A stretch of DNA of 64,000 bases from Sediminispirochaeta smaragdinae DSM 11293 (GCF_000143985.1 NC_014364.1:4030001-4094000); one strand, 5' to 3'; shown: positions 1-61,661, numbered from the stretch's first letter. The notes: a model not told the origin generated them from the letters alone. Translations and numbers: made by a program.

Positions 1-1956
1 CTCGGCCTGAAAGCGACGTCTGAGGGTCTCAACCTCCTGGAGGTTGTCGGTACGAATGAAATAGCGCAGCATACGAAAGAGGAATTCGTTTTGGATCCCG
101 TAATTGTTCATCAAGGCGGCAAGGGCAAAGCGGGCATCCTCCAGTTTGCTCGAATCATCCTTGCCCCACTCAAGGTTGATGTCGCTGGAAAGAAGAAGTG
201 CATCGTAATCGTCTATATGCTCTTCATCGGAAAGAAAGGTTTTGAGAATGGATGTGGCCTTGGGATAATTGGCAAGATCCTCATACTCCATCCGTGCATA
301 ATCAAGGGTTCCCTGTTTGTCCAGGCGATAACGGGAAAGAAGTCGTTCGTAGATGGCCTCGGCACGGGGCCACTGTCCGGCGCTCCTGTAGCCCTCGGCA
401 TAACGGTAGAACTGGCCTTTCATCGGCCAGATGTCCGTAGCCTGATCGAAATAGCTGCCGGACTGAGGGTACTCCTCGACACTCAGATGCTTGTAGCCTT
501 TCTGGTAGAGGGTATAAGCCTTCACCGGTCGGTAGATAAAACGATAGGAAAGAAAGATGACAAGAGCGAAGGCCGCTGCCGTCAACAGAGCCGTTCTGAT
601 AACGGGCAGGACATTTCGTCTGAAGCGATAGGAAAAGGAATCCCGCGCCTCTTCGAAGGCTGTACCGGTACGCTTTTCATACTCCCGAGGAATTTTGACC
701 CGTTTACCGGTGATTTTACCAACGAGGTTTGCGATATCTTTCGGAGAACGACCGCTTTTCAGACTCTCCAAAAGCTGTTTGAGTTCGTTACCGGAAAGCT
801 CCGCCTCACCGATCTGCTCCTCGATGAGCAACTTTAGGTTGAGAGGCAAAGAGCCGAGATGCTCTTTGACGTGATCGAAATCCTTATCTTCCAGGGAAAT
901 CTCTTGGACAGCGGATTCGAAGAACTCACCTTCACCTGCTTCGGCCGAGGGACCTCCGAGATCGAATCCCGGTGTCTCAGGAGTCTCTTCCAAAACGTCG
1001 AAATCTTGTCCGAGATCGCCCAGGCTGAACTCATCTAGTTCGAAATCCTCGTCTTCGATCTCCTGAAGCTCTTCAGCCTCTTCCTCGTCGCTAACATTGC
1101 CGAAATCGGGCAGCTCAAATTCTTCGCCTTCTTCCTCGAAGTCGGGCAGTGAAAAGGCATCTGGAGAAGCCTCTTCTTCACTTGCGGCGGCTTCACCGGA
1201 CTCCGAAGTCTCTTCGGCAAAGAGATCCTCGTCCATCTCCGGCAACTCGAGTTCCTCGGGCTCCTCGAGTTCAAAGGAGCTTTCAAGCTCTTCAGGCTCT
1301 TGTTCTTCCGCATGTTCTTCCGCAGATTCCGTTTCCTCTTCTTCCGGCTCCCACAGTGCCGGCTCTTCTTCCGCCGCTTCTTCCTCTCCGGCGGGCTCAC
1401 CGGCCGCCGGAGCCTCTTCGGCAAAGAGATCCTCGTCCATCTCCGGCAACTCGAGTTCTTCGAGTTCCTCGGTTTCGAAGGGGCTTTCAAGCTCCTCAGG
1501 CTCTTGTTCTTCCGCATGTTCTTCCGCAGATTCCGTTTTCTCTTCTTCCGGCTCCCACGGCGCCGGCTCTTCCTCCGGCTCCTCCCCCTCTGCGGCGGCT
1601 TCGCCGGCCTCCGGAACCTCTTCGGCAAAGAGATCCTCGTCCATCCCGGCGGCCTGTTCGTCAAAGGAAGCTAAAAAATCATCAAGGTCCGGTGTCTCTT
1701 CAGAGGCCGCCTCTTCGGTATCGAGGGGAATCTCAGCAGGCCCTTCTGATGTCTGGGTACGATCATCCTCCTGGCCAGATTCGATACCGAGTTCTTGATC
1801 AACCTCGTCGAGAAGAAGAGAAAGATCCTCACTCAAGCCCGATTCAGGAGCAGAGACATCCCGAACCTTCTCTCCTTTCCCGGCAAGGATAGAGGGTTCA
1901 CTACCGACAACGAGAAAATTGGATTTGAACTGTTCAATATCCTGGATTTCGGGCAT
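1..1956 (-). CDS. Acidic TPR membrane protein, possibly FlcA-like flagellar collar protein (3' end outside window)
   Basis: The reading frame is open from ATG at 1956 to base 1, giving at least 652 residues; an in-frame TAA lies just upstream and AAAGGAAG precedes the start. Residues 1-360 are very rich in Glu, Asp and Pro and contain tandem 68-residue repeats (about 113-248) marked by MDEDLFAEE. One transmembrane segment follows at about 455-475 (after the basic stretch SYRFRRN), then TPR-like helices to the edge. Known: spirochaetes have a long TPR protein, FlcA, that builds the periplasmic flagellar collar. The N-terminal, TM and TPR order fits, but the name is an inference. It is divergent from the secreted protein at 2080. 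Confidence 0.7.
   Translation of the reverse strand, partial: MPEIQDIEQFKSNFLVVGSEPSILAGKGEKVRDVSAPESGLSEDLSLLLDEVDQELGIESGQEDDRTQTSEGPAEIPLDTEEAASEETPDLDDFLASFDEQAAGMDEDLFAEEVPEAGEAAAEGEEPEEEPAPWEPEEEKTESAEEHAEEQEPEELESPFETEELEELELPEMDEDLFAEEAPAAGEPAGEEEAAEEEPALWEPEEEETESAEEHAEEQEPEELESSFELEEPEELELPEMDEDLFAEETSESGEAAASEEEASPDAFSLPDFEEEGEEFELPDFGNVSDEEEAEELQEIEDEDFELDEFSLGDLGQDFDVLEETPETPGFDLGGPSAEAGEGEFFESAVQEISLEDKDFDHVKEHLGSLPLNLKLLIEEQIGEAELSGNELKQLLESLKSGRSPKDIANLVGKITGKRVKIPREYEKRTGTAFEEARDSFSYRFRRNVLPVIRTALLTAAAFALVIFLSYRFIYRPVKAYTLYQKGYKHLSVEEYPQSGSYFDQATDIWPMKGQFYRYAEGYRSAGQWPRAEAIYERLLSRYRLDKQGTLDYARMEYEDLANYPKATSILKTFLSDEEHIDDYDALLLSSDINLEWGKDDSSKLEDARFALAALMNNYGIQNEFLFRMLRYFIRTDNLQEVETLRRRFQAE
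1211..1618 (-). repeat. Two tandem 204-bp in-frame repeats
   Basis: The block starting at 1211 recurs at 1415 and its start recurs again at 1619, an exact 204-bp period (68 codons). Each unit encodes MDEDLFAEE followed by a Glu/Pro/Ala stretch containing WEPEEE and SAEEHAEEQ. It lies within the acidic cytoplasmic half of the TPR membrane protein. Confidence 0.85.
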
Positions 1957-2079
1957 ATGCTTCCTTTAGTTAGTTTCGGTGCAAACCACCGGCCGCGTTA
2001 GTGTTATTTCTTTCGTCGCTGTAAGAGCTGCAAGAGCTTCTCAAGAACATGGCTTATCCTTCCGATAGACAAAGAGACA

Positions 2080-2883
2080 ATGAAAGGTAACATATTCCAC
2101 GCGCTACGGCTTCTATTTTCTTTCTTCCTCCTTCTATCTCCTGTGCTTGTATCATGGGCTCAGGAGGAGGCAACAAAGGGAAACGATATCGACATGGCAC
2201 TCCATGTATGGCTTCAAGAGCTTCGAAGTGCGGAGTCTCCAAAGATATATGGTGATTCCATTGTATTCACCTATGCCCCGAACCGTTTTTCGGAAAGACA
2301 GATTAGGTCGGTGGGAATAGCTTTCGCCCATGAATCCTACCAGACCATTCACCCTTTTCAAAGGGTCGTCGATACCGGAAAGGAAGAGGGAGCCGAAGAG
2401 ACAGGTGTCTTTTTCTGCCTCTTGCCTATTCCTCCGGGAGAAGAGGAGGTGAAGTATCGTCTCATTATAGATGGTCTGTGGATGGTCGATCCGGTCTCCA
2501 TTGCCACGGAGAGAGAACCCAGCGGTCTGGAAGTTTCGGTTCTTCCCCTTCCAAAGGGAAGTGTTCTTTCTTTCAAAAGCCCCGAGCTTAACAGAGAGGG
2601 GAAGGTCACCTTCCGTTACAGGGCAAGCTCAGGTTCCAGGATCTATCTCGCGGGAAGCTTCAACGATTGGGACCCTTTTATGTATCGAATGGCCGAGAGC
2701 CGGGATATACCCGGCCTTTTCACCATAACCTTACCCCTTCCAGAGGGAACACACTATTACGCCTTTATTCGCAATGGAATCTGTGTTGCGGATCCCATGA
2801 ATAACCGCATGGCATCAAAAAGTTCAGGAGAGCTCGTTTCTGTGGTACGAATCGGGGCAAAGCCTTCTATTGCTTCACGGTAA
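2080..2883 (+). CDS. Secreted protein with CBM48/E-set-like domains
   Basis: 267 residues with an N-terminal signal peptide (hydrophobic stretch about 9-25, likely cleavage after SWAQ). The C-terminal half has the AMPK-type glycogen-binding/E-set pattern: IYLAGSFNDWDPF, an aromatic-rich middle, then GTHYYAFIRNGICVADP. The first half (about 50-150) looks like a second diverged E-set domain ending in KYRLIIDGLWMVDP. No catalytic domain is present, so it is probably a periplasmic or surface carbohydrate- or protein-binding protein. Such domains occur at the N-terminus of branching enzymes and pullulanases; here they stand alone. Its 3' end overlaps the convergent nitrilase gene by 17 bp. Exact ligand unknown. 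Confidence 0.75.
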   Translation: MKGNIFHALRLLFSFFLLLSPVLVSWAQEEATKGNDIDMALHVWLQELRSAESPKIYGDSIVFTYAPNRFSERQIRSVGIAFAHESYQTIHPFQRVVDTGKEEGAEETGVFFCLLPIPPGEEEVKYRLIIDGLWMVDPVSIATEREPSGLEVSVLPLPKGSVLSFKSPELNREGKVTFRYRASSGSRIYLAGSFNDWDPFMYRMAESRDIPGLFTITLPLPEGTHYYAFIRNGICVADPMNNRMASKSSGELVSVVRIGAKPSIASR

Positions 2884-3796
2884 AAAGTAAAAAGCGTTCC
2901 TGCCCAGGATTGTCGGCACGCAGCACCGTTTCCACAGTTTTCGTTTCCTTTCGGTAGCGGGTGATCTCACTTGGCCCCTGCCAGAGCAGGCCGAAGAAGT
3001 TTCCGTTCAGGCAGGCGGTCACTCCCCATGGGAAGTGATACTCAGCCTGGCGGGATGGCAGAGCTCTGGAGAAAAGAGCCTCTGTCTCCTCTGTATAGAG
3101 CTCACCATTGGCCTTCAGATCTATCCACACCTGCGCCGATTCCATGAGATTGGCATAATCGTCGAAAAAGGTATCCCGGCAAATGGAAAATCCTAACTTT
3201 AATCCTCCGGCCGTGACAAGCCTGGCAGCCTGAGGAGATCCCGCATCCAATTCGACTATTCCGCGTTCAAAGGGCGTGAGATGGATCTTATCCTGCTCAT
3301 ACATCACCTCTCCATTCGGGCCGTAGAGTACCAGACGGTTAAAAAGCCGTCCTCCATCTTCGGCAAAGTAGGTCCCGGCAAGAATCATCAGGTGATGCAG
3401 TCGAGCCCCCTGCCCCCATACCCTATCCATGTGCTTCCTAACCATCGGTGAGCGCTTCAGAAAGAGGGTCTTCAAGTCCGGAAAGGGACGATCAGGGCCG
3501 GTGAGAAGGGCAAGGCCGTCTTCGATGGTGCGTACCCCCTCCAGCTGGTTTGCATCCGGAAGAAAAGCAAGCATCACATTTGCATACTCGGGAATGATAA
3601 GAAGATCGGCGCCGGAAGACTCGGCTCGGGTCATGATATCGTGTGCCTTGGCTTCAAAAGCCCCGACATCGAGATACAGTGTTTCGCTGACCTCGTATTG
3701 GCATACGGCAATGGTCAGAGTCCTTCCCTCTTCAGCGGCCGTAAAGGAAGGGAAGAAGAGAATGAGAAAGAAAAAGCCGAGCAGACGACGCTTCAT
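2867..3796 (-). CDS. Exported nitrilase-superfamily carbon-nitrogen hydrolase
   Basis: 309 residues. An N-terminal signal peptide (about 1-21) precedes a full nitrilase domain. The catalytic triad is visible: Glu70 in IIPEYANV, Lys170 in DKIHLTP and Cys206 in FSICRDTF. Known: this superfamily hydrolyses amides, nitriles or N-carbamoyl groups, or transfers acyl groups to lipoproteins. This protein lacks the multiple membrane segments of apolipoprotein N-acyltransferase, so an exported amidase is more likely; the substrate cannot be read from sequence. The start lies 3 nt after the stop of the hydroxyacid dehydrogenase, so the two form an operon. Confidence 0.8.
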   Translation of the reverse strand: MKRRLLGFFFLILFFPSFTAAEEGRTLTIAVCQYEVSETLYLDVGAFEAKAHDIMTRAESSGADLLIIPEYANVMLAFLPDANQLEGVRTIEDGLALLTGPDRPFPDLKTLFLKRSPMVRKHMDRVWGQGARLHHLMILAGTYFAEDGGRLFNRLVLYGPNGEVMYEQDKIHLTPFERGIVELDAGSPQAARLVTAGGLKLGFSICRDTFFDDYANLMESAQVWIDLKANGELYTEETEALFSRALPSRQAEYHFPWGVTACLNGNFFGLLWQGPSEITRYRKETKTVETVLRADNPGQERFLLFTVKQ

Positions 3797-3799
3797 GCC

Positions 3800-4789
3800 T
3801 TAAAAGTTATCCGGTCGAAATGTTTGGGAAAGATCCACGACAAAAGAAGCGGGTGCCTTACCCTGTAAAACGAGAAGGGCATTTTCCGCACACTTTTGTT
3901 TCAGCTCAACAATGGATTCCTCACTGTAATAGGCACAGTGATCGGTCAGCACCAGTTGCGGATAGGAGGAAAGCCTGGCGTCGCCGATAGGGGGTTCCTC
4001 TTCAAAGACATCGAGGCCTGCGGCAGACAGCTTTTCCTCTCGGAGAGCGGCGAGTAAGGCCTCCTGGTCTACGAGGGCCCCCCGAGCTGTATTGATGAGA
4101 ACAGCACCTGTTTTCATCTTCGAAAAGGCGTCTGCATCGATCAGGTGGTAATTCTCCTGCCGCATGGGGATATGGATCGAGATGATGTCCGATTGTGCAA
4201 GTAAGGTTTGAAAATCAACGATCTCCGCCTCTCCGACGGCCACATTGTGATGGTCGGCATGGTGGTCGCAGATCAACACTCGAGAAAAGCCCAATCCTGA
4301 CGCTTTTCGATGAAAACTTCTCCCCGTACCGCCGTAGCCTAAAATACCAAGAGATCTCCCGCTTAAACGCGGAATGGAAAGCGAGGAATGAATATTCCAT
4401 CCGCCTGAACGTACCTGCCGATCGAGCAAGGAGACCCTTCTGGTCACGGCTAAAAGCAAGGCAAGAGCGTGTTCGGCCACCTCATCATAACAGTAGTCGG
4501 GAACCCGCGCCACCCAGATTCCCTTCTCGGTAGCGGCCCGTACATCCACCTTCTCGTATCCGGTCCCGTACCGGCTGATGACACGACATCGACGAAGGCC
4601 GCTGATGAAATCGGCATCAAGAACCATCTGGTTGACCAGAATTGCATCGGCGTCGGCACACACGGCTCGTAAATTTTCCGTACCAAGCTCGTATCCGGCA
4701 ACAAGTTCTGCATCACAAGCTTCCAACACGCCAAGCTCAGGGGCATAATCTCCGGCAAATCGATCATCGGTAACAACTACGCGAAACAT
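3800..4789 (-). CDS. D-isomer-specific 2-hydroxyacid dehydrogenase, NAD-dependent
   Basis: 329 residues counted from ATG 4789, chosen over an upstream GTG (4795) because AAGGAG sits 6 nt before the ATG. The Rossmann motif GYGGTG is at about 151-156. The catalytic set is present: Arg236 in NTARGALVD, Glu265 in DVFEEEPP and His284 in LTDHCAYYSEES. It resembles the CtBP/phosphoglycerate dehydrogenase-like branch that reduces 2-keto acids with NADH. No ACT domain follows, so it is unlikely to be a regulated serine-pathway SerA. It is co-transcribed with the downstream exported nitrilase and divergent from the HAD gene. Substrate unknown. Confidence 0.88.
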   Translation of the reverse strand: MFRVVVTDDRFAGDYAPELGVLEACDAELVAGYELGTENLRAVCADADAILVNQMVLDADFISGLRRCRVISRYGTGYEKVDVRAATEKGIWVARVPDYCYDEVAEHALALLLAVTRRVSLLDRQVRSGGWNIHSSLSIPRLSGRSLGILGYGGTGRSFHRKASGLGFSRVLICDHHADHHNVAVGEAEIVDFQTLLAQSDIISIHIPMRQENYHLIDADAFSKMKTGAVLINTARGALVDQEALLAALREEKLSAAGLDVFEEEPPIGDARLSSYPQLVLTDHCAYYSEESIVELKQKCAENALLVLQGKAPASFVVDLSQTFRPDNF

Positions 4790-4798
4790 GCACACTCC

Positions 4799-4827
4799 TT
4801 GTCTCTTTTTTCATAACATGCTCTAAT
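4799..4827 (+). promoter_or_regulatory. Promoter of HAD gene, leaderless type
   Basis: TTGTCT (4799-4804), 17-nt spacer, TCTAAT (4822-4827). The ATG at 4834 begins 6 nt after the -10 box and no Shine-Dalgarno sequence is present. Confidence 0.5.
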
Positions 4828-4833
4828 CTGACT

Positions 4834-5466
4834 ATGCAGATATCCTATATCCTTTTCGATCTCGACGATACCCTCTACCCGTCGTCAAGCGGCCTTGCCC
4901 TCGCCTTTAAAGAGAACATTCTCTCTTTTGTATCCGATTATCTCAAGCTTCCCGTTGAGGAGGCAGAGGCTGTCAGAAAAGTAAAACGCAAAGAATACGG
5001 GACCACCCTCGAATGGCTCCAGAAAGAGAAGGGACTTGAGAATCCCGACTCCTACTTCGAAGCAATCCACCCAAAGGACGTCGGACGCTATCTGAAAAAG
5101 GATCCCGTGCTGGTCGAGTTGATCAAACGAATTCCTCAGCGTACATCGATTCTCACCAACAGCCCAATGGAGCATGCCGTCAGGGTATCCGAATTTCTTG
5201 AGATTCGCCATCTTATGGAACATATCTTCGATCTCCGCTCCAACAGCATGCTTGGGAAACCCGATTGGGGAGCATACAAGAGGGCTCTTGATACGATAAG
5301 ATGCCGGCCGGAAGAGGTTCTCTTTGTCGACGATATGCCGCGATACCTCTATGCGTTTCGGGAAATGGGCGGTCATGTGCTTCTGGTGGATGAAAGCGGC
5401 AGACATAAGGGGACAGACCTTGATACGGTCACGTCCATTCATCAAATCGAAACCGTTTTGCGATAA
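4834..5466 (+). CDS. HAD-superfamily hydrolase, pyrimidine 5'-nucleotidase-like
   Basis: 210 residues with all four HAD motifs: FDLDDTLYP (nucleophile Asp9, acid Asp11), ILTNSP, the Lys in LGKPDWG, and LFVDDMP. A helical cap of about 80 residues sits between motifs I and II (subfamily IA). Overall it resembles the SDT1/PHM8-type pyrimidine nucleotidases, which dephosphorylate small phosphometabolites; the substrate is inferred only from this resemblance. No ribosome-binding site precedes the ATG and the promoter lies directly upstream, so the mRNA probably starts at or within 1-2 nt of the start codon. Confidence 0.85.
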   Translation: MQISYILFDLDDTLYPSSSGLALAFKENILSFVSDYLKLPVEEAEAVRKVKRKEYGTTLEWLQKEKGLENPDSYFEAIHPKDVGRYLKKDPVLVELIKRIPQRTSILTNSPMEHAVRVSEFLEIRHLMEHIFDLRSNSMLGKPDWGAYKRALDTIRCRPEEVLFVDDMPRYLYAFREMGGHVLLVDESGRHKGTDLDTVTSIHQIETVLR

Positions 5467-5472
5467 GCTTAC

Positions 5473-5514
5473 AAAAAAAAGCGGCCGATCTCCATGGAGA
5501 CGGCCGTTTTTTTT
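5473..5514. terminator. Bidirectional rho-independent terminator
   Basis: CGGCCG (5482-5487) pairs with CGGCCG (5501-5506), with an inner palindrome CTCCATGGAG. It is flanked by eight A on the left and eight T on the right. It serves the convergent HAD gene (+) and oppF (-). Confidence 0.9.
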
Positions 5515-5516
5515 GT

Positions 5517-6584
5517 TCAATTGAGTTCCCGCCATCTGTGGCAGGCAACAAGATGGCCGCCTCCGGCATCCTCAAGCTCGGGAATGCGCTCTTTGCAAAT
5601 CTCCTTGGCATAGGGACATCGCGGATGGAAACGGCAACCGGACGGAGGGTTCAGAGGATTTGGAACATCCCCCGAAAGGATGATCTTTTCAATCTTGGTC
5701 TCAGGATCCGGAATGGGAATTGCAGAAAGCAGCGCCTTGGTGTAGGGATGCAACGGTGTCTTGAACAACTCAGGAGTCTGAGAGAGCTCCATCATCTTGC
5801 CAAGATACATTACGGCAATCCGCTGAGTGATATACTTCACCACCAGGAGGTGGTGGGTGACAAAAAGATAGGTAAGTTGGAATTCATCCTGAAGCCGCTT
5901 GAGCAGATTCAGGATCTGCGCCTGGACCGAAACGTCAAGGGCGCTGGTAGGCTCGTCCATCAAGATAAACTTGGGATTGGTTGCAAGGGCACGGGCCACG
6001 GCAATACGCTGCCGCTGTCCTCCGGAAAACTCATGAGGATATCGGCGCATGTGCTCACGGGAAAGGCCGACAGTGCCAAGCAGTTCGACTACCCGCTCTT
6101 CAACCTCTGCCGCACTGGAATAGACATGCTGGATTATCATCGGCTCACCGACGATATCCTTAATTAAAAGTCGGGGATTAAGGGAGTTTGAAGGGTCCTG
6201 AAAAACGATATTGATCTTTCGGCGGGCCTCCTTCATGGCTCTGCCCTTAAGGCGGGTAAGGTCCATCATCTTTCGCATGGCCTCGGCCTGTGCGACAGCC
6301 TCCGGTTTGTCGGAGGCAAACAGAGCCTCAAGCTCCTCGATCTTTTCTGCATCCTGATCGAGATAGACACGCCCGGCAGTGGCATCGTGAAGTCGTAAAA
6401 TGGCCTTTCCTAAGGTTGTTTTGCCACAGCCGGATTCTCCAACCATACCGAGACATTCGCCTCGTTTAATCTGGAAAGAGACATCGTCCACCGCCTTCAC
6501 ATCTGCGATATGCCGACGCATAACGCCCCCCTTTACGGGGTAGTATTTTTTCAGATTTCTGATATCAAGGATGTTATCGTTCAT
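5517..6584 (-). CDS. oppF: Oligopeptide ABC transporter ATPase, OppF-type
   Basis: 355 residues from ATG 6584, which lies inside the end of oppD (11-nt overlap). The motifs are complete: Walker A GESGCGKT (49-56), Q-loop VFQDP, signature SGGQ (188-191), Walker B FILMDEP, and the C-terminal peptide-importer extension with [10 protein letters not shown]. An extra charged, helical segment of about 35 residues (about 80-115) sits between Walker A and the Q-loop, where most OppF proteins have only a short loop. It is the last gene of the five-gene opp operon and ends at a bidirectional terminator. It energises peptide uptake together with OppD. Confidence 0.92.
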
Positions 6585-51223: not shown

Positions 51224-51252
51224 TTGATTAAGCATAAAAATTGTCGATTAAT
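51224..51252 (+). promoter_or_regulatory. Promoter of cyclase-fold pair
   Basis: TTGATT (51224-51229), 17-nt spacer, ATTAAT (51247-51252). Transcription would start near 51259, so the in-frame TTG at 51224 cannot be the translation start. Confidence 0.45.
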
Positions 51253-51271
51253 AAGTAACTGTGGTAGGTTT

Positions 51272-52201
51272 GTGAAACGAATAGGAAGCGCATTAATCAA
51301 CACTAGTTCAAAGGCCCTCGCCCAATCCATGACCACGAAGACGATGGTGGTCCTTGCCAAAAAGGTCTTTCCCAATTACGACCTTTATGCAAGAACGGGA
51401 TTCCCCTCGAGTATGCCAATTCCAAATAAAGAAGCCGCACGACAAATCGTCCACGACATGGTCAAGGCCGATCGCTTTCTCGATTTCGTCCTGCTTCTGG
51501 TCGAGATCGGAGACAAGGGGCTCATGGGGCGAAGATACACCGTTCCCTACATGCGCGACATCATTTCCGGAGTCTTTGAGCTCGGCTATCTCTACGACAC
51601 AACAAACCAGCTCTTTGTCGAGAACCCTCAATATAGTATTACAAGAAACTGGGGCGCGCTAAAAACGGCGAAGGAATATACCCTCACCTTTCTCAGGATC
51701 GACATCGTCGGCAATTCGGTTATTGTAAGAGAAAATCAGGAAGAGCAGGTCGGTGCAGCCTATGAAGCCCTCCGGGAAATCTGTCAGAATGCCGTCCTTA
51801 AACGCAACGGCAGGATATGGAGCTGGGAGGGAGACGGAGGCCTGGCCACCTTCTTTTTCAATAACAAAAACCAGAGTGCCGTCATGGCAGGCCGGGAAAT
51901 CCTTCACGAACTCTTTTTTTACAACAAAATATCCTGTCCACTGAAATCGCCTCTCAACATCAGAGTCGCCATTCATAGCGGACCCTTCGATTACACACCG
52001 GACGAAGAAGAACTAAAATCCTGCGAAACCATAAAGCGGATCATGGACATTGAATCCCGTATGACATTACCTGACAGCATGACCATCAGCTCGGTGGTAA
52101 AGCTCATGCTTGATGCGATCTCTTCCACCGACCTCGAACCCTTTACAGGGAAAGATCAGCTTGAATACTACCGTTACACCCTCAAACTGGAGAAGCCGTG
52201 A
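51272..52201 (+). CDS. Class III nucleotidyl cyclase-fold protein
   Basis: About 309 residues from GTG 51272 (weak SD TAGG; ATG 51329 is an alternative). N-terminal helical part (about 1-125) of unknown fold, then a cyclase-like domain (about 130-309). The metal-binding Asp positions seem kept: LTFLRIDIVGNSVIV and IWSWEGDGGLATFF. The remaining substrate-specifying residues are unclear, so activity is not assured. Cytoplasmic, no membrane helix. Its stop overlaps the next cyclase-fold gene by 4 nt. Confidence 0.7.
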   Translation: MKRIGSALINTSSKALAQSMTTKTMVVLAKKVFPNYDLYARTGFPSSMPIPNKEAARQIVHDMVKADRFLDFVLLLVEIGDKGLMGRRYTVPYMRDIISGVFELGYLYDTTNQLFVENPQYSITRNWGALKTAKEYTLTFLRIDIVGNSVIVRENQEEQVGAAYEALREICQNAVLKRNGRIWSWEGDGGLATFFFNNKNQSAVMAGREILHELFFYNKISCPLKSPLNIRVAIHSGPFDYTPDEEELKSCETIKRIMDIESRMTLPDSMTISSVVKLMLDAISSTDLEPFTGKDQLEYYRYTLKLEKP

Positions 52202-53196
52202 AACTCTTTGTGATCAGCGATCAAAAAAAGATTACGGACCATTTCTCGGCAATCGAGCGAAGCCGCAAAAACAGCATAGAGCTACTTCCCAGAAAGGAAT
52301 ACCGCTCCCGGTTAAAAGACGAAACGGGAACCTGCCTTGTCTATTACGATATTAGTCAGCAGGAAGAGAAAGCCTACGGCAAGGAACTACGTTTTCTCCT
52401 AAAACTTCCCCATGTATGTACTGCGGTCATAGATAGCAAAGATGCGATGGAAGACCCCGCACTTTTTTTTCGTCAGGGAGGGGTCGATTACCTTGGGAAA
52501 AAGCTCTTTCAACGTGGTTTTCAGACAAAACGCTTGAAAGAGATTGAAGATTTTCTCGGTACATCAATAAGTAACGAAAAAACGGCCAAGCCTGGGACCT
52601 GCCCAGATCCCCTCGCCTTTCCGCAGGAATGTATCATTCCCGGGGGAGAATGGAAGCACGTCAAACAGGGGAAAAACTATCTGTTTTGTATGCTGTTTGC
52701 TGAACTTGATGCAACCAGCGAATGGAAACGAAGTTCAGGACAGGATCACCTCAAGGCTGTAAAAGATAGGTTTCAGGGGTTTATACGCAAGAATTTCGAG
52801 CAGATAAACGGCCGCATTTGGATGTGGAACGAATTCGGCGGTCTTCTACTTTTCCCTTATAACGGAAGCTCGTTTCCCATGGTCCTCGCCGCCTGCAAGC
52901 TTATGATGAATAGAGCCATTGCCAGTTGCGAGGATTTCCCCTTCGGAACACCAATCTCCTACCGCCTTGGAATCCATATCGGAGAAACCGTTTACAAAGA
53001 GCGAGGCAATACCGGAACCATTGTTTCGGACGCGATCAACTTCATTTTTCACCTTGGCACAAAATATGCCGCTCCCGGAAACCTCTATATCACCAGGCAG
53101 GTATATGAAACGACCCATCCGGGGCTTAAAGAGCTCTTTCTCGAAGAGGGAGAGTTTGAAGGAAAGAAAATCTTCAGGATGCGTCGTGTACTTTAA
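52198..53196 (+). CDS. Second cyclase-fold protein, probably catalytically altered
   Basis: 332 residues, GTG start (GTGA overlap). About 1-120: receiver-like or unclassified alpha/beta domain (KLFVISDQKKITDHF, LPHVCTAVIDSKDAM). About 150-332: cyclase-like domain with LFCMLFAELDATSEW, IWMWNEFGGLLLFP and TGTIVSDAINFIFHLGTKYA. The second metal Asp (GDG in its partner) is replaced by Glu-Phe-Gly, so a non-catalytic or heterodimer partner is likely. It shares the INGRIWxW pattern with the upstream protein, pointing to a duplicated pair. Confidence 0.65.
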   Translation: MKLFVISDQKKITDHFSAIERSRKNSIELLPRKEYRSRLKDETGTCLVYYDISQQEEKAYGKELRFLLKLPHVCTAVIDSKDAMEDPALFFRQGGVDYLGKKLFQRGFQTKRLKEIEDFLGTSISNEKTAKPGTCPDPLAFPQECIIPGGEWKHVKQGKNYLFCMLFAELDATSEWKRSSGQDHLKAVKDRFQGFIRKNFEQINGRIWMWNEFGGLLLFPYNGSSFPMVLAACKLMMNRAIASCEDFPFGTPISYRLGIHIGETVYKERGNTGTIVSDAINFIFHLGTKYAAPGNLYITRQVYETTHPGLKELFLEEGEFEGKKIFRMRRVL

Positions 53197-54087: not shown

Positions 54088-54930
54088 TTACCCCTGCCCC
54101 GAAAGGACGATGAAATAACAGGGAAGGCGGCGCCGCTTTCCCCTATAATAGTGGAGAGCCTTTTTCCCGCCATCGTCTATAAAGGCGATGGCAGCGGCAT
54201 CACCACCGTCCAGATTTATCCCCTCCGTGGCCCCGTAATGGCTCAAGATTCCGGCAGTTTCCCGGCTTGTGAGCCCCGGCTGAAACAGTGAATCGCCTTC
54301 AACAACAAGGACAAACAGAGAGGCGGAAGCCTTGCTGCCTCCGATACCGAAGGCGGTACGGGCGTGCCGCCGGCCATGTATGCCGATAGTATCCCCGGAT
54401 TTCAATATGGGCAAATAGGTTCCGACAAGCCAGTGGGGGTGATCCGGAACGTCCCCACCGGCAGAGACTATTCCATAGCCTGTTTCATCACGAAAAAGCA
54501 CGCCCCACTGCCGCTGCCTTGCCCCATACTCCCGGCCATCCACCAACCAAGAACCAATGGCCTCAAGCCTCTTCGATCCAGCCCCTCCCACGCTCACGAA
54601 GGGAGCACCGGTAAAGGCGGCAACGGCTTCGGGACGCTGGGAAAGAGCCGAACGAAAGGCCTTTGCAACATCCGTTCCATGGGGAAAGGGAGCAAGAGGA
54701 AGGACCTGGGCACCCTGCGAGGGGACTATAATCAAAAGATGGAATGGCGGAAAGCCCTTTTTCCCTTGGTAGGAAAGGTACGAAACCCCCGTTCCGAGAG
54801 ATCGCGCAGAGGACAAGAGGGGCAGATCCTGCGGTAGTCCGACCTCTTTCGGCCGTCCGGAAAAGCTGGCACAGGAAGAGAGAAGCAGCAGGCACACAAG
54901 CAAGGCGGTCGTACATCCTCGCCTCATCAT
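54088..54930 (-). CDS. NAGPA-like phosphodiester glycosidase lipoprotein
   Basis: 280 residues. Signal peptide with lipobox LLSSC. The C-terminal half carries the phosphodiester glycosidase (NAGPA/DUF2233) motifs HARTAFGIGG and TEGINLDGGDAAAIAF. Known: the human family member removes N-acetylglucosamine from a phosphodiester; bacterial ones cleave sugar-phosphodiesters in the cell envelope. Third gene of an operon after two glycosyltransferase-like genes; start overlaps the previous stop by 4 nt (ATGA). Confidence 0.85.
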   Translation of the reverse strand: MMRRGCTTALLVCLLLLSSCASFSGRPKEVGLPQDLPLLSSARSLGTGVSYLSYQGKKGFPPFHLLIIVPSQGAQVLPLAPFPHGTDVAKAFRSALSQRPEAVAAFTGAPFVSVGGAGSKRLEAIGSWLVDGREYGARQRQWGVLFRDETGYGIVSAGGDVPDHPHWLVGTYLPILKSGDTIGIHGRRHARTAFGIGGSKASASLFVLVVEGDSLFQPGLTSRETAGILSHYGATEGINLDGGDAAAIAFIDDGGKKALHYYRGKRRRLPCYFIVLSGQG

Positions 54931-56660
54931 AGCACGCTTATCTCCTGTGCAAGCCTCTGCAAGCTAGGCCAGGCATCAAGGGACGCAGCATAACGTCCCA
55001 GCCAATCGGCAAAAACGGGAGGAAGGGCAGCGGCAGGCTCCTGTTTCTCACGAAGCATCGATTCACGATAGGCCCTAAGATCGTCGGCCCACCAAGCAGG
55101 TTCGCCATGATAGCGATCGAGCAACAGATCAACGCTCCTAAGCCTCGCATCGATATACGCCTCGGCAAGATGGCGCAGATAAAGCCGAAAAGCGGAACCC
55201 GGCAATCCTGCAATCTCTCTCAACGCCCTGACGAGCTCGCCCCTTCGTTCGGCAGCGGATTCTGCAAGCAGGCGGCCTCCGAGGTCGTCGACAATCAGAA
55301 GAAACAGTCTCCCGGGGCCAAGGTCTGAATCCCAAAGCGCCCGGCCAAAGGGAAGTTTATGCGAGGGATCATGGTAAAGGGCGACGGGAAGATGACAAAA
55401 AAGAAGATCAGGATCAAGGGCTCTGAAGATGTGGGCAAAGGATTGATCCTCGTGGCGGTCGAGAGGGAAAAAGGGAGGGGCCCCGCTGTTCGCCGCCAAG
55501 GCGAGGGTTCCTCCCTGAAGGAATGAGGAATCACTTGCAACCATGCCGTCGGCAAGCGTAAGATTGAGGCCGTTTTCCGCTATTGCCTCATAATTCTTCT
55601 TTTCAAGAAAATAATTGTCATTGCAAAAAAACCTCTGGAGAGCAGGAAAACAGGGAAAAGAAAACCAGCGGGCCCCTGCGTATCCAGCACTTATCGCACC
55701 GATGCGGACACTCCTGCATTCCAGAATCGCAGCTAAAGAAGGAGAAAGTGCTTCGAGAGACCAGTCACCCACCTTCTGGGGAGAAGAAAACAAGCGCATG
55801 GCCACTGCGGGAAGGTCATAGTCGGCAAGATGAGCCAGCCGTTCCTGTAGCGCCTCGATCGTGGGGAAGAAATTCATGTTCGGCCGAAAATCGGAAACAA
55901 AAGAAGGGGAAAGGGCCTCTGCATGTGCAGAGGTATAACAGCGGTAGAGCAGATCGTCGTCACTTATCAGCAGATGATCTCCCGCAGCAAGGAGCATGGC
56001 AAGGTTTCGATTTGCCCCAACAGTCGATAAGTCCGCCCTTTCGGCAGGGCCTTCCACAAGGAATTCCACCACCTGTCGATCGATCCCCGCCTTATCAGCC
56101 GATGCCGAAAGCCGCTCGGCAAAACGCCGCCGTTCATCCCTTCCAATATAACGAATTGTTCCCGGATAAGCTGCCCCCAAAGCCTCGGCAAGGCGTCGAT
56201 TCTGCCCAGAGGCAGAGGCATCACGATTATCGTCGCATATAAGAAAAGGAATTTTTCGGTCGGCAAAGGCCGGTGAAGCGATTCGACTCTCGAGCCACGG
56301 CCGTAGCGTCTCAGGCCCCCGTGCAGTCACCACCGCCGCCGTCAGCGCTGCCTCATCTCCCGGTTCTGCAGAAACCGCTGCAGAAGGATGGTGCAAAAGC
56401 TTCTCGGGGCGCAGAAGTCCTGCGGCTATCCAACACCGAAGCCGATCGGCCACGGCAGAAACGGGAAAGCGCTCTCCGGTGCTTCGAACCAGGAAACCAA
56501 TATGCTCATCCACGTTCCGGCAGCCCCGCAAGGCAAGAAAGAGCCTCGATTCGAAGGGCGAGGCCCGATACACGGAATTATCATTGAGATTGAGAAGCAT
56601 TACCGTCGAAGAGGAGGCAGAAAAAGCCTTACAGTGCGCAGGAAAATAGCGATCGCTCAT
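54927..56660 (-). CDS. PqqD-like domain fused to glycosyltransferase-like domain
   Basis: 577 residues from ATG 56660 (4-nt overlap with the upstream stop). About 15-92: a PqqD-like winged helix, the peptide-binding RRE fold (VMLLNLNDNSVYRASPFES, then AVADRLRCWIAAGLLRP). About 108-420: GT-A-like fold with AAVVTARGPETLRPWL, VGANRNLAMLLAAGD and the metal motif ISDDDLLY. The C-terminal 150 residues are helical. Similar to the upstream protein in the GT part only. Acceptor unknown; the RRE-like domain suggests a peptide or protein substrate. Confidence 0.6.
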   Translation of the reverse strand: MSDRYFPAHCKAFSASSSTVMLLNLNDNSVYRASPFESRLFLALRGCRNVDEHIGFLVRSTGERFPVSAVADRLRCWIAAGLLRPEKLLHHPSAAVSAEPGDEAALTAAVVTARGPETLRPWLESRIASPAFADRKIPFLICDDNRDASASGQNRRLAEALGAAYPGTIRYIGRDERRRFAERLSASADKAGIDRQVVEFLVEGPAERADLSTVGANRNLAMLLAAGDHLLISDDDLLYRCYTSAHAEALSPSFVSDFRPNMNFFPTIEALQERLAHLADYDLPAVAMRLFSSPQKVGDWSLEALSPSLAAILECRSVRIGAISAGYAGARWFSFPCFPALQRFFCNDNYFLEKKNYEAIAENGLNLTLADGMVASDSSFLQGGTLALAANSGAPPFFPLDRHEDQSFAHIFRALDPDLLFCHLPVALYHDPSHKLPFGRALWDSDLGPGRLFLLIVDDLGGRLLAESAAERRGELVRALREIAGLPGSAFRLYLRHLAEAYIDARLRSVDLLLDRYHGEPAWWADDLRAYRESMLREKQEPAAALPPVFADWLGRYAASLDAWPSLQRLAQEISVL

Positions 56661-58066
56661 AAGCAGGCCCGTCCTTCCCATATCTCAGGCCAGGCACAGA
56701 GTAGCTCTCCACAGGAACCTACAAATCGTTGAAAGGCGGATTCAGCCTCGTCTCCCAGGTGATGAAATTCACGGGGACGGCTGGGTGTAGAGGCTGGAAG
56801 CTCGTCGAGATAGCGGTCAAGGAAGGATCGAAGATCCTTCGCCCAGAATCCTGGTTTTCCACCGGATTGCTCAAGATCGGCTTCAAGCCTCGCAACCATG
56901 GCCCCTTCATGCTTCAGATGAAGCTCTAAAAGGAGGTGTTTCCATTGCCGCAGCGGGAGGGATGCAGCCCCGGAAAGCCGCATGCCCAGGGCAAGAAGCC
57001 GATCGCCGGCTTCGGGAGCCTTTAGTTCATCGGAAAAGAAGGAAAGCAAACGCTGCACGACAGTTCCCGCTCCAATACCGGAACATCGGTGTTCCGACCG
57101 AAAGGGGGGATGGATTCCCCTCTTATGTTCGAAAGCAAAAGGCAGATGGGCAATGGGAGCATCGGGATAAGAAGCGCGGAGAAGAAAGGCCCATACCCCA
57201 TCCTCATTCCGGATATGCGGGAAAAAGGGAGGCAGAATCTCGGAAGCATCGAAACCGTAACAAGAGGCAATGAAAAAGGGATGGGAGGTGTAGGAGAGCT
57301 CTGGAGCAAGAAGAAGGGCGACGGGATCGCTACCAGCCCTCCGATAACTGCGCCTGTTGGGCCATGCCCGCTTTCGAAGAAATGGCTGGGTATCAAAAAG
57401 CGCAAGGGGAGATGAAAACCACCGGTCCCCGCAAATGCCGGCCATGGCCGCACGAACCGGGCTATGCAGGTCCGCTGCTGCCTCGCTGTCCCCTTCCGCC
57501 ATACCATCACATCGGGGCGTCCGTCCCAAAACCGAGTCGAACAATTCGAAACAGCGGACTGCACCGGAAACAAGAGGTCTCGAGACAGAATCGGGAAACG
57601 ATTCTGTTCCTGAAGCGGCAAATGCAAAGGGAAGCGGTGATCCTTCTTCCATAGCAAAACGAGGCTCTCGCAGTAAAAATCGAATATCATCGTCGAAAGA
57701 GAGGACTTTTTTTCCGACAGAGGAAAGGAGAATCGCATTACGGGCGGCCCCAGGCATTGCAGGAGCATGAGGAAAGGGGAGAAGGCCGAGGGCAAAGGCT
57801 GATTGCTTCTGTGCCGGCCCTTCCGGGGAGATGGTTTCTGTCGTCCCATAGGAAAGCGCAAGACCGCTTTGGGCGGCAAAGGAGTGAACAATCGATTCGT
57901 TGACACTCCGGACAGAAGCTTCCCGGCTATCGTCGTAGACCGTGATCGGGCCTATAGGAACACCTTCCGTCTCCGCCGATAAAGAGTCGAGTGCCCCGCG
58001 TAAAACCTCGGGACGCCCGCAGGTTAGCATGGCAAGGCTCTGATGGCTATGTGACGAAGATCCCAT
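56657..58066 (-). CDS. Glycosyltransferase-like protein (GT-A type)
   Basis: 469 residues from ATG 58066, placed 7 nt after the -10 box. GT-A-like core: SLAMLTCGRPEVLRGALDSL, PITVYDDSRE, PGAARNAILLSSVGKKVLSFDDDIRF (DxD-type metal motif). Paralogous to the GT part of the next gene (GA-RN-A-LL pattern and D-D-D motif) but without the PqqD-like domain. First gene of the three-gene operon ending in the glycosidase lipoprotein. Donor and acceptor unknown. Confidence 0.65.
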   Translation of the reverse strand: MGSSSHSHQSLAMLTCGRPEVLRGALDSLSAETEGVPIGPITVYDDSREASVRSVNESIVHSFAAQSGLALSYGTTETISPEGPAQKQSAFALGLLPFPHAPAMPGAARNAILLSSVGKKVLSFDDDIRFLLREPRFAMEEGSPLPFAFAASGTESFPDSVSRPLVSGAVRCFELFDSVLGRTPRCDGMAEGDSEAAADLHSPVRAAMAGICGDRWFSSPLALFDTQPFLRKRAWPNRRSYRRAGSDPVALLLAPELSYTSHPFFIASCYGFDASEILPPFFPHIRNEDGVWAFLLRASYPDAPIAHLPFAFEHKRGIHPPFRSEHRCSGIGAGTVVQRLLSFFSDELKAPEAGDRLLALGMRLSGAASLPLRQWKHLLLELHLKHEGAMVARLEADLEQSGGKPGFWAKDLRSFLDRYLDELPASTPSRPREFHHLGDEAESAFQRFVGSCGELLCAWPEIWEGRACL

Positions 58067-58073
58067 TGCTCTT

Positions 58074-58103
58074 ATTAACACGGAGAACGGTAGGGGAAGT
58101 CAA
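58074..58103 (-). promoter_or_regulatory. Promoter of glycosyltransferase operon, leaderless type
   Basis: TTGACT (58103-58098), 18-nt spacer, GTTAAT (58079-58074), 7 nt to ATG 58066. No SD. Confidence 0.45.
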
Positions 58104-58147: not shown

Positions 58148-58648
58148 CTATCCTTCTGCATGATTAATGAGCTCAACAGCAATGGTGGATGTTTCACCCG
58201 GATTAACGGTAAAAGCATCTGAAACCCCGGCGTAGGCAGCGAAACCATTATAATCATCGCTTACATTATGAGCCTCAAGCAAAAGACGGTATCGCATTGG
58301 AGGAATCGACGAAATAGTCATTATTCCCGACCCTGTCAAGGTGTCGATATAATCGACCCACAGCATATCGGGGTCAGGTAAACTAATGGTATAATAATAA
58401 TAAAACTCAGCAGTAGTCGCAACATACCGAATGGTGGGTTCATCACCGGCAAGAAGATCGTCCATCACATCAGCGTCGTAGAATTTTGCCACCAGATAAT
58501 AACCATCTCCCGAATCACCTAAATCACCCTTACTTGAAATTGTCAGGCTTACCACATTATCACTTGTTACCGTCTCCGAATAGCACCCGCCGAAGATAAG
58601 GATAAGCAGAGGGGCCAAAAGCGGTATTAGATATGTATTTATTTTCAT
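58148..58648 (-). CDS. Small lipoprotein B, paralogue of 58841-59335
   Basis: 166 residues from the second of two ATG codons. Lipobox IFGGC. Shared with its neighbour: VSLTISSKGDLGDSG, YLVAKFYDADVMDD, YRLLLEAH and DAFTVNPGET. Probably all-beta and displayed in the envelope. No family recognised. Follows the paralogue after a 189-nt gap that contains a stem-loop but no clear promoter. Confidence 0.75.
   Translation of the reverse strand: MKINTYLIPLLAPLLILIFGGCYSETVTSDNVVSLTISSKGDLGDSGDGYYLVAKFYDADVMDDLLAGDEPTIRYVATTAEFYYYYTISLPDPDMLWVDYIDTLTGSGIMTISSIPPMRYRLLLEAHNVSDDYNGFAAYAGVSDAFTVNPGETSTIAVELINHAEG
58458..58500. repeat. 43-bp exact repeat shared by the lipoprotein paralogues (copy 1)
   Basis: Identical to 59145-59187; it encodes the LVAKFYDADVMD segment of both lipoproteins. 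Identity at silent sites implies recent duplication or gene conversion. Confidence 0.85.
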
Positions 58649-58781
58649 CATCTTTCATCATTGCTCCTTTTTTCACATCCCCGACCGTAACTCCGATAAT
58701 TCATGAAATCGGTGCACTCTTGCTACAGTCTAAGGCAACAGTCGGTCCGAAAAAGGGACCTCATATCATTTTTTTATAAAC

Positions 58782-58840: not shown

Positions 58841-59335
58841 TTAACAAATATATAATAATTCAACAGAAACAGAGGAGGTCTCTCCGGCATTCACCGTGAA
58901 AGCATTGGAAAGGCCAGCATACCAAGGACCGGAAACACCATCTCCCTCAGAATACTCATACTCTTCCAGAAGCAGTCGGTAACTCTTCGGAGTTAGAAAA
59001 GGCACGGTAAAAGAACCGGAACTTCCCATGGAAAAATTCTCAATATAATCGGCATATCGAAGTGATGGAGTTGGGAAAGAGGCAGGAGTATAGATAATTA
59101 TGCCAGACGGTTCATCGACGGTAATAGTTTCATTAGTTTCAAGCTCGTCCATCACATCAGCGTCGTAGAATTTTGCCACCAGATAATTACCGGATCCTGA
59201 ATCACCGATATCACCTTTACTCGAGACCGTCAGGCTCACCGAGCCGTCGCTTGTTGTCGCTTCCGAATAGCATCCGCTAAAGAAAAGGATGAGTAGAGAG
59301 GCCAGAAGCGGCACCAGATATCTATGTAATTTCAT
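58841..59335 (-). CDS. Small lipoprotein A
   Basis: 164 residues. SD AAGGAG 6 nt upstream of ATG. Lipobox FFSGC. Sequence closely follows its downstream paralogue at both ends (VSLTVSSKGDIGDSG, NAFTVNAGETSSVSVEL) while the middle differs. Starts 21 nt after the FecR stop, so it belongs to the FecR/outer-membrane-protein operon. Confidence 0.75.
   Translation of the reverse strand: MKLHRYLVPLLASLLILFFSGCYSEATTSDGSVSLTVSSKGDIGDSGSGNYLVAKFYDADVMDELETNETITVDEPSGIIIYTPASFPTPSLRYADYIENFSMGSSGSFTVPFLTPKSYRLLLEEYEYSEGDGVSGPWYAGLSNAFTVNAGETSSVSVELLYIC
59145..59187. repeat. 43-bp exact repeat shared by the lipoprotein paralogues (copy 2)
   Basis: Identical to 58458-58500. Confidence 0.85.
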
Positions 59336-59356: not shown

Positions 59357-60040
59357 TTATTGAGGACTACTATAGGTCCAATTAATCGTGACGCTTCCCG
59401 TCGATGTTAAATCTAACGAGGGAAGGAGACTTTCCAGCTGCTCTTCGATCTGCGATGTGTTGATGGAAACATTGAACATCTGCTCCAGGGCTTCGACACC
59501 TTCGGGAGGAAGGCTAAAGCCGTCGGTGGAGGAGTTTTCACCGGCTGCCACACGGGCGACCTGATTGAGGGTGTTGGTGAGGGCCACAAGGCCGGTAAAA
59601 ACTTGAAGGTTTGAACCGTCGAAGGAGAAGCTCGTGCCTCTAACCGCAGCGGTGGAAACGGGACTTCGCAGGCGGAAATCCTGCTGGAGCCCCTCGGTGT
59701 GTTTTACCTCGGTTTTAACCCGGCCGACCCGAAGAAAAAGATCGGTTTTGACAACCCCTTCCTTCTGAATGAGTTCGTCGAGGCGCATGCGGGTAAGCTG
59801 TTTGACCTCGAGGGTCGCAGCACCGATCTGCAGGAGGGCTTCGGAACGGAAACCGGTGGAGATGGTTGCCCCCAGGGGAATCTCATCTCCGGCAGAAAGA
59901 GCCTCCCAGCTTCCTCCATTCTTTTGCAGTTCGACCTTTCCGGAAACCTTTTCGACGACGGCGTTCTCCGCGGAGAGGGCCGTTACCGTAAAAAGCAACA
60001 TAGAGAGCGAAAGTAGAATAATACGAACGATGGATTTCAT
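59357..60040 (-). CDS. Exported FecR-domain protein
   Basis: 227 residues from ATG 60040 (AAGGAGG 5 nt upstream); an in-frame start 11 codons earlier is less likely. Signal peptide (about 1-24). FecR domain (about 30-140): VVEKVSGKVELQKNGGSWEALSAGD, IPLGATISTGFRSEALLQIG and RSPVSTAAVRGTSFSF. No sigma factor is nearby, so this is the stand-alone periplasmic type rather than an iron-signalling anti-sigma factor. Operon with the outer-membrane protein upstream and lipoproteins downstream. Confidence 0.85.
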   Translation of the reverse strand: MKSIVRIILLSLSMLLFTVTALSAENAVVEKVSGKVELQKNGGSWEALSAGDEIPLGATISTGFRSEALLQIGAATLEVKQLTRMRLDELIQKEGVVKTDLFLRVGRVKTEVKHTEGLQQDFRLRSPVSTAAVRGTSFSFDGSNLQVFTGLVALTNTLNQVARVAAGENSSTDGFSLPPEGVEALEQMFNVSINTSQIEEQLESLLPSLDLTSTGSVTINWTYSSPQ

Positions 60041-60054
60041 CGATACCTCCTTTG

Positions 60055-61233
60055 TTACAGACCGAGTGAGCACTCGACGCGAAGAAGAGCCCGGGTATCC
60101 CCTTCATCGGGAACCCAGAGTCCGCCGGTAAGCGACATGCCGAAATCCGAAGTGGGGCGAATGGTGAGACCACCCTCCAACTCGGTTCCTGTGTAGCTGT
60201 AGTCGTCGCTGGGAACGAGGTAAAACCGCCCCGCTGCAAGGAACTGAAGATTCTTTAAGGCCGGCGAGAATAGATCCTGCCAGGGACGTATGGAATAGGC
60301 AATGTCGAGCCTGAAAAGATCCGCCTCATCCGGCGAATAGATTAAGCCGAGGGTCGGCTCGGAAACGGTAAAGAAATCCTCACCGGTGTACATCATACCA
60401 GCCGATATCCTCGAATGAAGAAGCTGCTGCGCGTAGTAGTTCAGATCGGCAAGAACCATCACATCATCGAGATCGTCGGAGGTATTCCAGGCTCCGGTGG
60501 CGGAAAGGGTATAGTAGAGGTTGCCCACGATCGCACCGTCGGCTTTCGCCGTAGCGTGGATGCTGTTGAGTTTATCTTCATCGTCACTACGCAAATCCTG
60601 CTGGAAAAGCCCTTCAACGGTTAGGTTCTGGCGGGGCAGGTAGGAAGGGAAAGAGACGGAAGCCATTTCAAATAGACGCTTCGGAGCAAAATGAATATCG
60701 TCGTCATCATCATCGCTGATATCGGCAGTGCTCATATTTACACTTGAAACGGGCTTCAGACGAAGTCCGGTATAGCCCATCCCTGTTTTTACGATATACC
60801 TTGAAAGGTCCAGGCCTGCGGAAAATCCGTCGGCTATATGCGAAAGCACCAGACTCGTCGAATCGGAAAAGGGGAATCTGCCGACCGAGAGATCAAGGAC
60901 CTCGTTTCCGCCGAACAGCTGCGGCCGTTTCATCTTGAACACAAGAAGATCGCTTTCAAAGAGATAATCGACATCATCGCTGCTCTCTTCATCGCTGTAG
61001 AGATAGTAGCCGTTGAAAAGAAATGAATAACGGCTATTGTCTTCCCCGGACCAGAATTCCTCCATCCAAAGAGAAAGCTTCTCCCGTTTCTGCCACTGGT
61101 TATCTTCGTCCCCGCCGAATTCGTAGCCGAGGCGACTATAGGAGGTGACTCCCCAGTCGAAAGCGAAAAGCGAAGTGGTAAAGGGCAACAGAAATAGCGT
61201 AGCAAAGAATGTGCAACGGACAAAACGCTTCAT
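60055..61233 (-). CDS. Putative outer-membrane beta-barrel protein
   Basis: 392 residues. Signal peptide (about 1-24, cleavage near LFA), then many alternating beta strands rich in Tyr, Phe and Asp (YSFLFNGYYLYSDEE, LYYTLSATGAWN), ending with a short strand LLRVECSLGL. No recognised family; a 14-16 strand barrel is a fair guess. Overlaps the upstream exported-protein gene by 4 nt and precedes FecR by 14 nt. Confidence 0.7.
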   Translation of the reverse strand: MKRFVRCTFFATLFLLPFTTSLFAFDWGVTSYSRLGYEFGGDEDNQWQKREKLSLWMEEFWSGEDNSRYSFLFNGYYLYSDEESSDDVDYLFESDLLVFKMKRPQLFGGNEVLDLSVGRFPFSDSTSLVLSHIADGFSAGLDLSRYIVKTGMGYTGLRLKPVSSVNMSTADISDDDDDDIHFAPKRLFEMASVSFPSYLPRQNLTVEGLFQQDLRSDDEDKLNSIHATAKADGAIVGNLYYTLSATGAWNTSDDLDDVMVLADLNYYAQQLLHSRISAGMMYTGEDFFTVSEPTLGLIYSPDEADLFRLDIAYSIRPWQDLFSPALKNLQFLAAGRFYLVPSDDYSYTGTELEGGLTIRPTSDFGMSLTGGLWVPDEGDTRALLRVECSLGL

Positions 61234-61661
61234 GAATGCACCTCCAGCTTTTCAAGGGCGCGGCCGAGAATCCGCAGGGCCCCCTCACCGGAAAGCGGGG
61301 TTGCGGGATGTGCCTTCATTTGAATGATGCCGAGGAACCGGAGGTCCCGTAGGGCATATCTGGGAGACGGGTAGACCAACGAGCCAAGACCTTTTGGAAG
61401 ATCAAGATTCTCCTGCAGGAGAAGGGCGAACTCTCCTACACTGATACTCTCTCCCAAATCGGCGAATTGATCCGATAGCGATGCCAGCGCCTCTTCCATG
61501 CTAGCAGGGGCCTGATTCCCGTCGGAAAGGCTTGCAAGAAGATAGGCGGCAGCGGCCGGGCTAAGTTGCGGTTCGGCAAGAATTTCGTCGATGATTTCGT
61601 TCGACTGGCCGAAAAGCGCTGCCGCAGCGAAAAAAAACACAACGGCAAGAAAATGCTTCAT
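61230..61661 (-). CDS. Small exported protein of unknown function
   Basis: 143 residues with a signal peptide (cleavage near LFGQ). The rest is helical and Ala/Leu-rich (SPAAAAYLLASLSDG, SVGEFALLLQENLDLPKGLGS), a pattern seen in small envelope proteins. No family recognised. SD AGGAGG 4 nt before ATG. First gene of the operon with the outer-membrane barrel and FecR; divergent from the adenylate cyclase over a 181-bp gap in which only a TATACT (61803-61808) without a good -35 box is seen. Confidence 0.65.
   Translation of the reverse strand: MKHFLAVVFFFAAAALFGQSNEIIDEILAEPQLSPAAAAYLLASLSDGNQAPASMEEALASLSDQFADLGESISVGEFALLLQENLDLPKGLGSLVYPSPRYALRDLRFLGIIQMKAHPATPLSGEGALRILGRALEKLEVHS

Follow-up and report, generated by a model that had tools for sequence, protein, structure and literature searches.

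RRE domains, the recognition elements of ribosomally synthesized and post-translationally modified peptides (RiPPs), bind RiPP leader peptides, and their fusions to glycosyltransferase (GT) domains are already on record as unexplained. The fusions described with RRE-Finder (PMC7470986; PMC12710340) likewise combine an RRE with a glycosyltransferase (PF00535 in PMC12710340) and have no known pathway; the searchable portions of these reports name neither lipoproteins nor spirochaetes in connection with them. A fusion of this kind is encoded by gene B of Sediminispirochaeta smaragdinae DSM 11293, next to a GT-like paralogue, gene C, in a stretch of 64,000 nucleotides (the window; bases 4,030,001-4,094,000 of a single-contig genome of 4,653,970 bases). 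Measured against those portions, the addition made here is a link to lipoprotein genes, which stand directly upstream of the GT genes in most relatives. The locus is read as a cytoplasmic system that would glycosylate the lipoproteins encoded beside it, a reading given an even chance of being correct.

The RRE domains of TbiB1, LynD, TigE, CteB and ThcOx share fold and topology with the N-terminus of B, but the RRE of B is fused to a GT-A domain, no short precursor peptide is found among its neighbours of at least 60 aa, and the candidate substrate is a lipoprotein of 160-550 aa. The DUF2063 RRE with its DUF2282 precursors, which carry Sec signal peptides (PMC12710340), offers a precedent for RRE action on exported polypeptides, although the enzyme here is different and the candidate substrates are lipoproteins, with type II signal peptides. 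The mycofactocin glycosyltransferase MftF (TIGR03965) is likewise a GT-A enzyme and works on a RiPP product, but what it makes is a glucan chain attached to a small redox cofactor (PMC7491314). Membership of the MftF family was considered and rejected, the best TIGR03965 match in the genome reaching 67 bits against a cut-off of 280 and lying at other loci. Enzymes of families GT55, GT81 and GT27 (MpgS, GPGS and GalNAc-T1) have the overall fold and catalytic positions in common with B, but their identity to it is low (8-16%), they contain no RRE, and no sequence-based family assignment is possible. In the literature searched, outside which most subscription journals lie, nothing relevant was found on an RRE-GT/lipoprotein link or on glycosylated spirochaete lipoproteins.

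The genes that carry the argument are the following:

56657-58066, minus strand: gene C, GT-A glycosyltransferase-like protein without an RRE, about 469 aa; DDD, xED and C-His positions conserved
54927-56660, minus strand: gene B, RRE-GT-A fusion, 577 aa from the conserved ATG at 56660
56403-56660, minus strand: RRE/PqqD-like domain of B, residues 1-86 of the 577-aa form, as placed by the model, Foldseek, VIA-align and hhalign
58148-58651, minus strand: small lipoprotein 2, 167 aa, lipobox FGGC-Y, directly upstream of C; candidate acceptor
58841-59335, minus strand: small lipoprotein 1, 164 aa, lipobox FSGC-Y; candidate acceptor

Genes C and B, together with a third gene, A, form three overlapping minus-strand genes spanning 54088-58066. 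An earlier note on this DNA had described them as an operon of two GT-A-like proteins, one of them PqqD/RRE-like, plus a NAGPA enzyme, and this description is borne out by the open reading frames (ORFs), the fold matches and PF09992. C starts at an ATG at 58066, with an alternative in-frame GTG at 58081. For B, an earlier in-frame ATG at 56681 (ORF 54927-56681) would give 584 aa; the ATG at 56660 is the conserved start and creates a 4-nt ATGA overlap with C, as it does in the sister species of the same genus (L014). There C, B and A keep the same order at 90-94% identity, whereas a distant family (G033, G008, G068) preserves the C-B tandem in this order at 28-37% identity and lacks A. The 90-92% identity of C and B in the second species, together with the same tandem order in the distant family, indicates that both genes are real. 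As paralogues, C and B share 27% identity with each other; the two small lipoproteins, likewise paralogues, share 52%.

The RRE of B and the glycosyltransferase domains of B and C

The PqqD/RRE domain at the N-terminus of B does not emerge from sequence searches alone. In single-sequence scans only one of 15 family members matched PqqD (PF05402), with an E value of 0.093, and a profile of the N-terminal domain gave only chance matches among PDB sequences, to repeat and helical proteins, TAL effectors first. An independent profile-profile comparison by hhalign of the 15 N-termini with ten PqqD-type proteins from Spirochaetia gave a probability of 89 (P 2e-6, 75 columns). The predicted structure, with a mean local confidence (pLDDT) of 68 overall and 70-85 over the core, consists of a three-stranded sheet (strands 10-14, 20-24 and 30-33) followed by three helices (35-46, 50-61 and 67-80), with an extra short strand at 4-7; this bbb-aaa order is the topology of an RRE. 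When the model was compared with the PDB by Foldseek, ranks 1-14 were all RRE-bearing RiPP enzymes (E 0.006-0.13, probability 0.89-1.00), among them TbiB1, LynD, TigE, CteB, a lasso B1 protein and ThcOx, and the next match followed only after a gap, at E 0.6. VIA-align placed TigE at Z 10.6 (root-mean-square deviation 2.7, 83 residues aligned) and TbiB1 at Z 10.2. Each of these measures is moderate by itself; combined, they make the RRE secure. Structure prediction, fold comparison and profile-profile comparison agree on an RRE at this N-terminus; a domain that did not fold as a winged helix would have spoken against the earlier note. The confidence of the models is modest, since they were built from only 2-4 sequences.

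The glycosyltransferase domains are similarly remote from described families. Neither B nor C alone matches Pfam or NCBIfam, B finds no match among PDB sequences, and a scan of 12 family members yielded a single match, Glycos_transf_2 (4.8e-6), in one of them. The model of B (four sequences; pLDDT 61, predicted template-modelling score 0.68) gave nothing at E <0.001 with Foldseek, and aligned by VIA-align to GT-A enzymes at Z 10-15 (MtdL 14.9, MpgS 13.5, GPGS 12.6, GalNAc-T1 10.7). The GT domains of both B and C are of the GT-A type. The hallmarks of that fold are the DxD, G-loop, xED and C-His positions (PMC7185993), which were assigned here by order and context. Across 12 aligned members, D241-D243, G333, G336 and H437 are invariant and D412 is nearly so, E411-D412 of B being the xED position (584-aa numbering). 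All four positions are retained in both B and C, and both therefore look like active enzymes. Next comes a helical stretch of about 130 residues.

Lipoprotein genes upstream of the glycosyltransferases

Within the class, a profile search detected the GT family in 30 of 395 genomes; further classes of the phylum have it as well. The relatives of the locus belong to the Spirochaetia, and one locus of a related family comes from Candidatus Marispirochaeta associata. Scans of genome contigs were empty in the first round and gave one locus in the second; no member was found in viral contigs, and none in a plasmid search that used the divergent relative L068 as query.

The earlier note had suggested an envelope protein as the possible acceptor, which fits the data and can now be sharpened. 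A simple lipobox rule, applied to mechanical ORFs in the relatives, identifies the same-strand gene directly upstream of the GT as a lipoprotein gene in 18 of the 24 operons that could be read and in 12 of the 16 families; for L064, one of the 18, and for some readings close to contig edges the call was made by eye. The background in the same fetched loci, from which it was estimated in place of whole genomes, is 38 of 279 ORFs (13.6%), or about 8% once the adjacent lipoproteins are removed. At 13.6%, chance would produce the observed linkage with probability 1e-11 counted by operons and 4e-8 by families, figures that are optimistic given the relatedness of the loci. A test set gathered afterwards comprised seven loci, six from other classes or families and L124 from a family seen before (f36). 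Four of the seven (L118, L119, L120 and L123) have an upstream lipoprotein (chance 0.008 at 13.6%); L124 has a lipoprotein at a distance of two ORFs, L121 is truncated by the end of its contig, and L122 has none.

Several unrelated kinds of lipoprotein (GCY type, choice-of-anchor D, GPGM type and NHL-repeat type) occupy the adjacent position, so it is lipoproteins as a class that the link follows. The GT genes close a conserved gene order, seen in the window and, to the extent that the contigs show it, in families f6, f43, f12 and f40: 143-aa exported protein, barrel-like protein, FecR protein, lipoprotein(s), GT and RRE-GT. In other families a lone RRE-GT stands behind a different lipoprotein, often one with a choice-of-anchor D domain. 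The upstream part of the cluster in the window reads as follows:

59357-60073, minus strand: FecR-domain exported protein (PF04773, 3.9e-6); cluster synteny conserved
60055-61233, minus strand: predicted outer-membrane-type protein, called barrel by appearance only; conserved in the cluster
61230-61661, minus strand: 143-aa exported protein, first gene of the conserved cluster by synteny; no Pfam match

The small lipoproteins of the window define a family with an invariant G-C-Y at the lipobox. Strong matches to this GCY family occur in six of 390 genomes, all of them GT-bearing, and all nine copies lie inside a GT operon; elsewhere there are weaker C-terminal matches, to longer ORFs. The barrel-like family, by contrast, has profile matches in 191 of the 390 genomes of the class, frequently as several copies per genome, and is widespread where no GTs occur. 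This difference makes the GTs look like an accessory of a widespread envelope operon that is tied specifically to the lipoprotein gene.

Three minor observations concern this cluster. The lipoproteins of the FecR-type clusters have Tyr directly after the lipid-bearing Cys (GCY, SCY or TCY), as in both small lipoproteins of the window and in L015, L016, L017, L051, L052, L054 and L055; a residue unusual at this position, it could be a sorting signal. The barrel-like family, which has no Pfam family, represents a widespread undescribed envelope protein. In L017, positions 677-3002 and 3713-6020 hold near-identical tandem copies of the 143-aa type, barrel and FecR genes with two different lipoproteins, reflecting either a recent duplication or an assembly effect.

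A proposed reaction and its alternatives

The RRE and the gene neighbourhood together point to a protein acceptor. In the proposed mechanism, the RRE of B would, in the cytoplasm, bind part of the still unfolded prolipoprotein, much as RREs bind RiPP leader peptides, and the GT-A domain of B would transfer a sugar to Ser/Thr or another side chain. The RRE-less paralogue C may act as a partner in this transfer or as the enzyme of a second step. Sec would then export the glycosylated lipoprotein, which would be lipidated and take its place in the envelope alongside the FecR and barrel-like proteins. The wider proposition, that Spirochaetota carry out RRE-directed protein glycosylation in which full-size lipoproteins serve as ribosomal substrates and are modified ahead of Sec export by dedicated GT-A enzymes, one of them bearing the RRE, with lineage-specific lipoproteins and perhaps sugars, is held at slightly below even. 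If true, RRE-guided modification reaches beyond small RiPP peptides to envelope lipoproteins of ordinary size, and free-living spirochaetes gain a cytoplasmic lipoprotein glycosylation route of which no description was found. The RRE-glycosyltransferase fusions, hitherto without any substrate, would gain a concrete candidate, and the mass of a named lipoprotein is predicted to change once two named genes are removed.

Several observations weigh against lipoprotein glycosylation by this route. Four single-GT operons lack an RRE (L019, L054, L063 and L124), which means that the RRE is not essential to the lipoprotein link, and RREs can be vestigial (PMC7470986). Between three and six operons have no clear upstream lipoprotein (L060, L066, L068 and L122, with L019 divergent), and no shared acceptor motif was found among the lipoproteins. 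Moreover, part of the adjacency may have arisen by insertion beside a ready-made envelope operon, since the barrel-like family is so much more widely distributed than the GTs.

The strongest alternative, although an unlikely one, is that the GTs make an envelope glycan or glycolipid which the lipoprotein, FecR and barrel-like proteins bind, display or export, the RRE being vestigial or docking the GT to a protein partner. The VIA-align neighbours of B include GT55, GT78 and GT81, whose acceptors are phosphate-linked (PMC7185993), a lone sugar-DXD protein lies near L018 (PF04488, 0.0038), and the divergent relative L068 sits inside a capsule-type ABC-transporter cluster. The earlier note had held that a conserved polysaccharide-pathway context in relatives would speak against peptide or protein glycosylation; no such context dominates, L068 being the exception, and no recurrent flippase, polymerase or nucleotide-sugar pathway appears in the loci read. 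An RRE is also unexpected in a polysaccharide GT, and a specific glycan-binding partner would not predict unrelated lipoprotein families at one position. As a separate observation, the L068 contig, with its divergent RRE-GT beside the transporter, may not belong to the spirochaete genome in which it was binned.

It is improbable that the locus is instead a RiPP-like pathway whose small precursor peptide is unannotated or encoded at another site, the lipoprotein being incidental. Such a pathway would account for the RRE and for a radical SAM gene behind the RRE-GT in genome G037 (L018), and RRE-GT fusions are listed as possible new RiPP classes (PMC7470986; PMC12710340). The recurrent neighbour, however, is a full-size lipoprotein, and no short ORF recurs among neighbours of at least 60 aa in the loci read, shorter ORFs not having been systematically examined. 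The earlier note's statement that no precursor gene is adjacent had missed the two upstream lipoprotein genes; its parallel statement on radical SAM genes does not extend to L018. That B and C are nucleotide-sugar mutases with a GT-A fold, or some other non-transferase resembling MtdL, is very improbable: MtdL is the top VIA-align match of B, but on a modest model it leads the GT55 and GT81 enzymes only slightly (Z 14.9, next family 13.5), while the sole good Pfam match in the family is Glycos_transf_2 and the RGP family is absent from the 12-member scan.

Other neighbours of the glycosyltransferase genes

Several further neighbours are single or double cases and only hints with respect to lipoprotein glycosylation. 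Genes for a UDP-glucuronate decarboxylase (UDP-xylose synthase) stand beside the GT in two families (L063, 8847-9782; L066, 71-775), matching a solved enzyme at E 1e-111 and 1e-80; this points to UDP-xylose as the suspected sugar donor in those two families. For the genome of the window itself UDP-xylose is unsupported as the donor, the closest match to the synthase there having 26-27% identity. In two genomes of one genus, genes for an HGSNAT-type (HGSNAT_cat) acyltransferase lie between the RRE-GT and arrays of paralogous lipoproteins (L119, 5692-6804; L120, 4170-5351), and the enzyme could acylate the sugar after export. The radical SAM gene of L018 (888-1871) begins 15 bases downstream of the RRE-GT, and its C-terminal cysteines look SPASM-like.

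Gene A is the remaining member of the operon in the window:

54088-54930, minus strand: gene A, NAGPA (phosphodiester glycosidase) lipoprotein (PF09992, 6.2e-9)

It has a lipobox and overlaps B by 4 nt. The earlier note had counted this enzyme as a member of the system, a view that does not hold: A occurs in this operon only within the genus (the window and L014), and is rejected as a core part in favour of a lineage-specific addition. Farther along the window, two adjacent overlapping genes (51224-52201 and 52198-53196) resemble divergent nucleotide cyclases of class III and have no Pfam matches.

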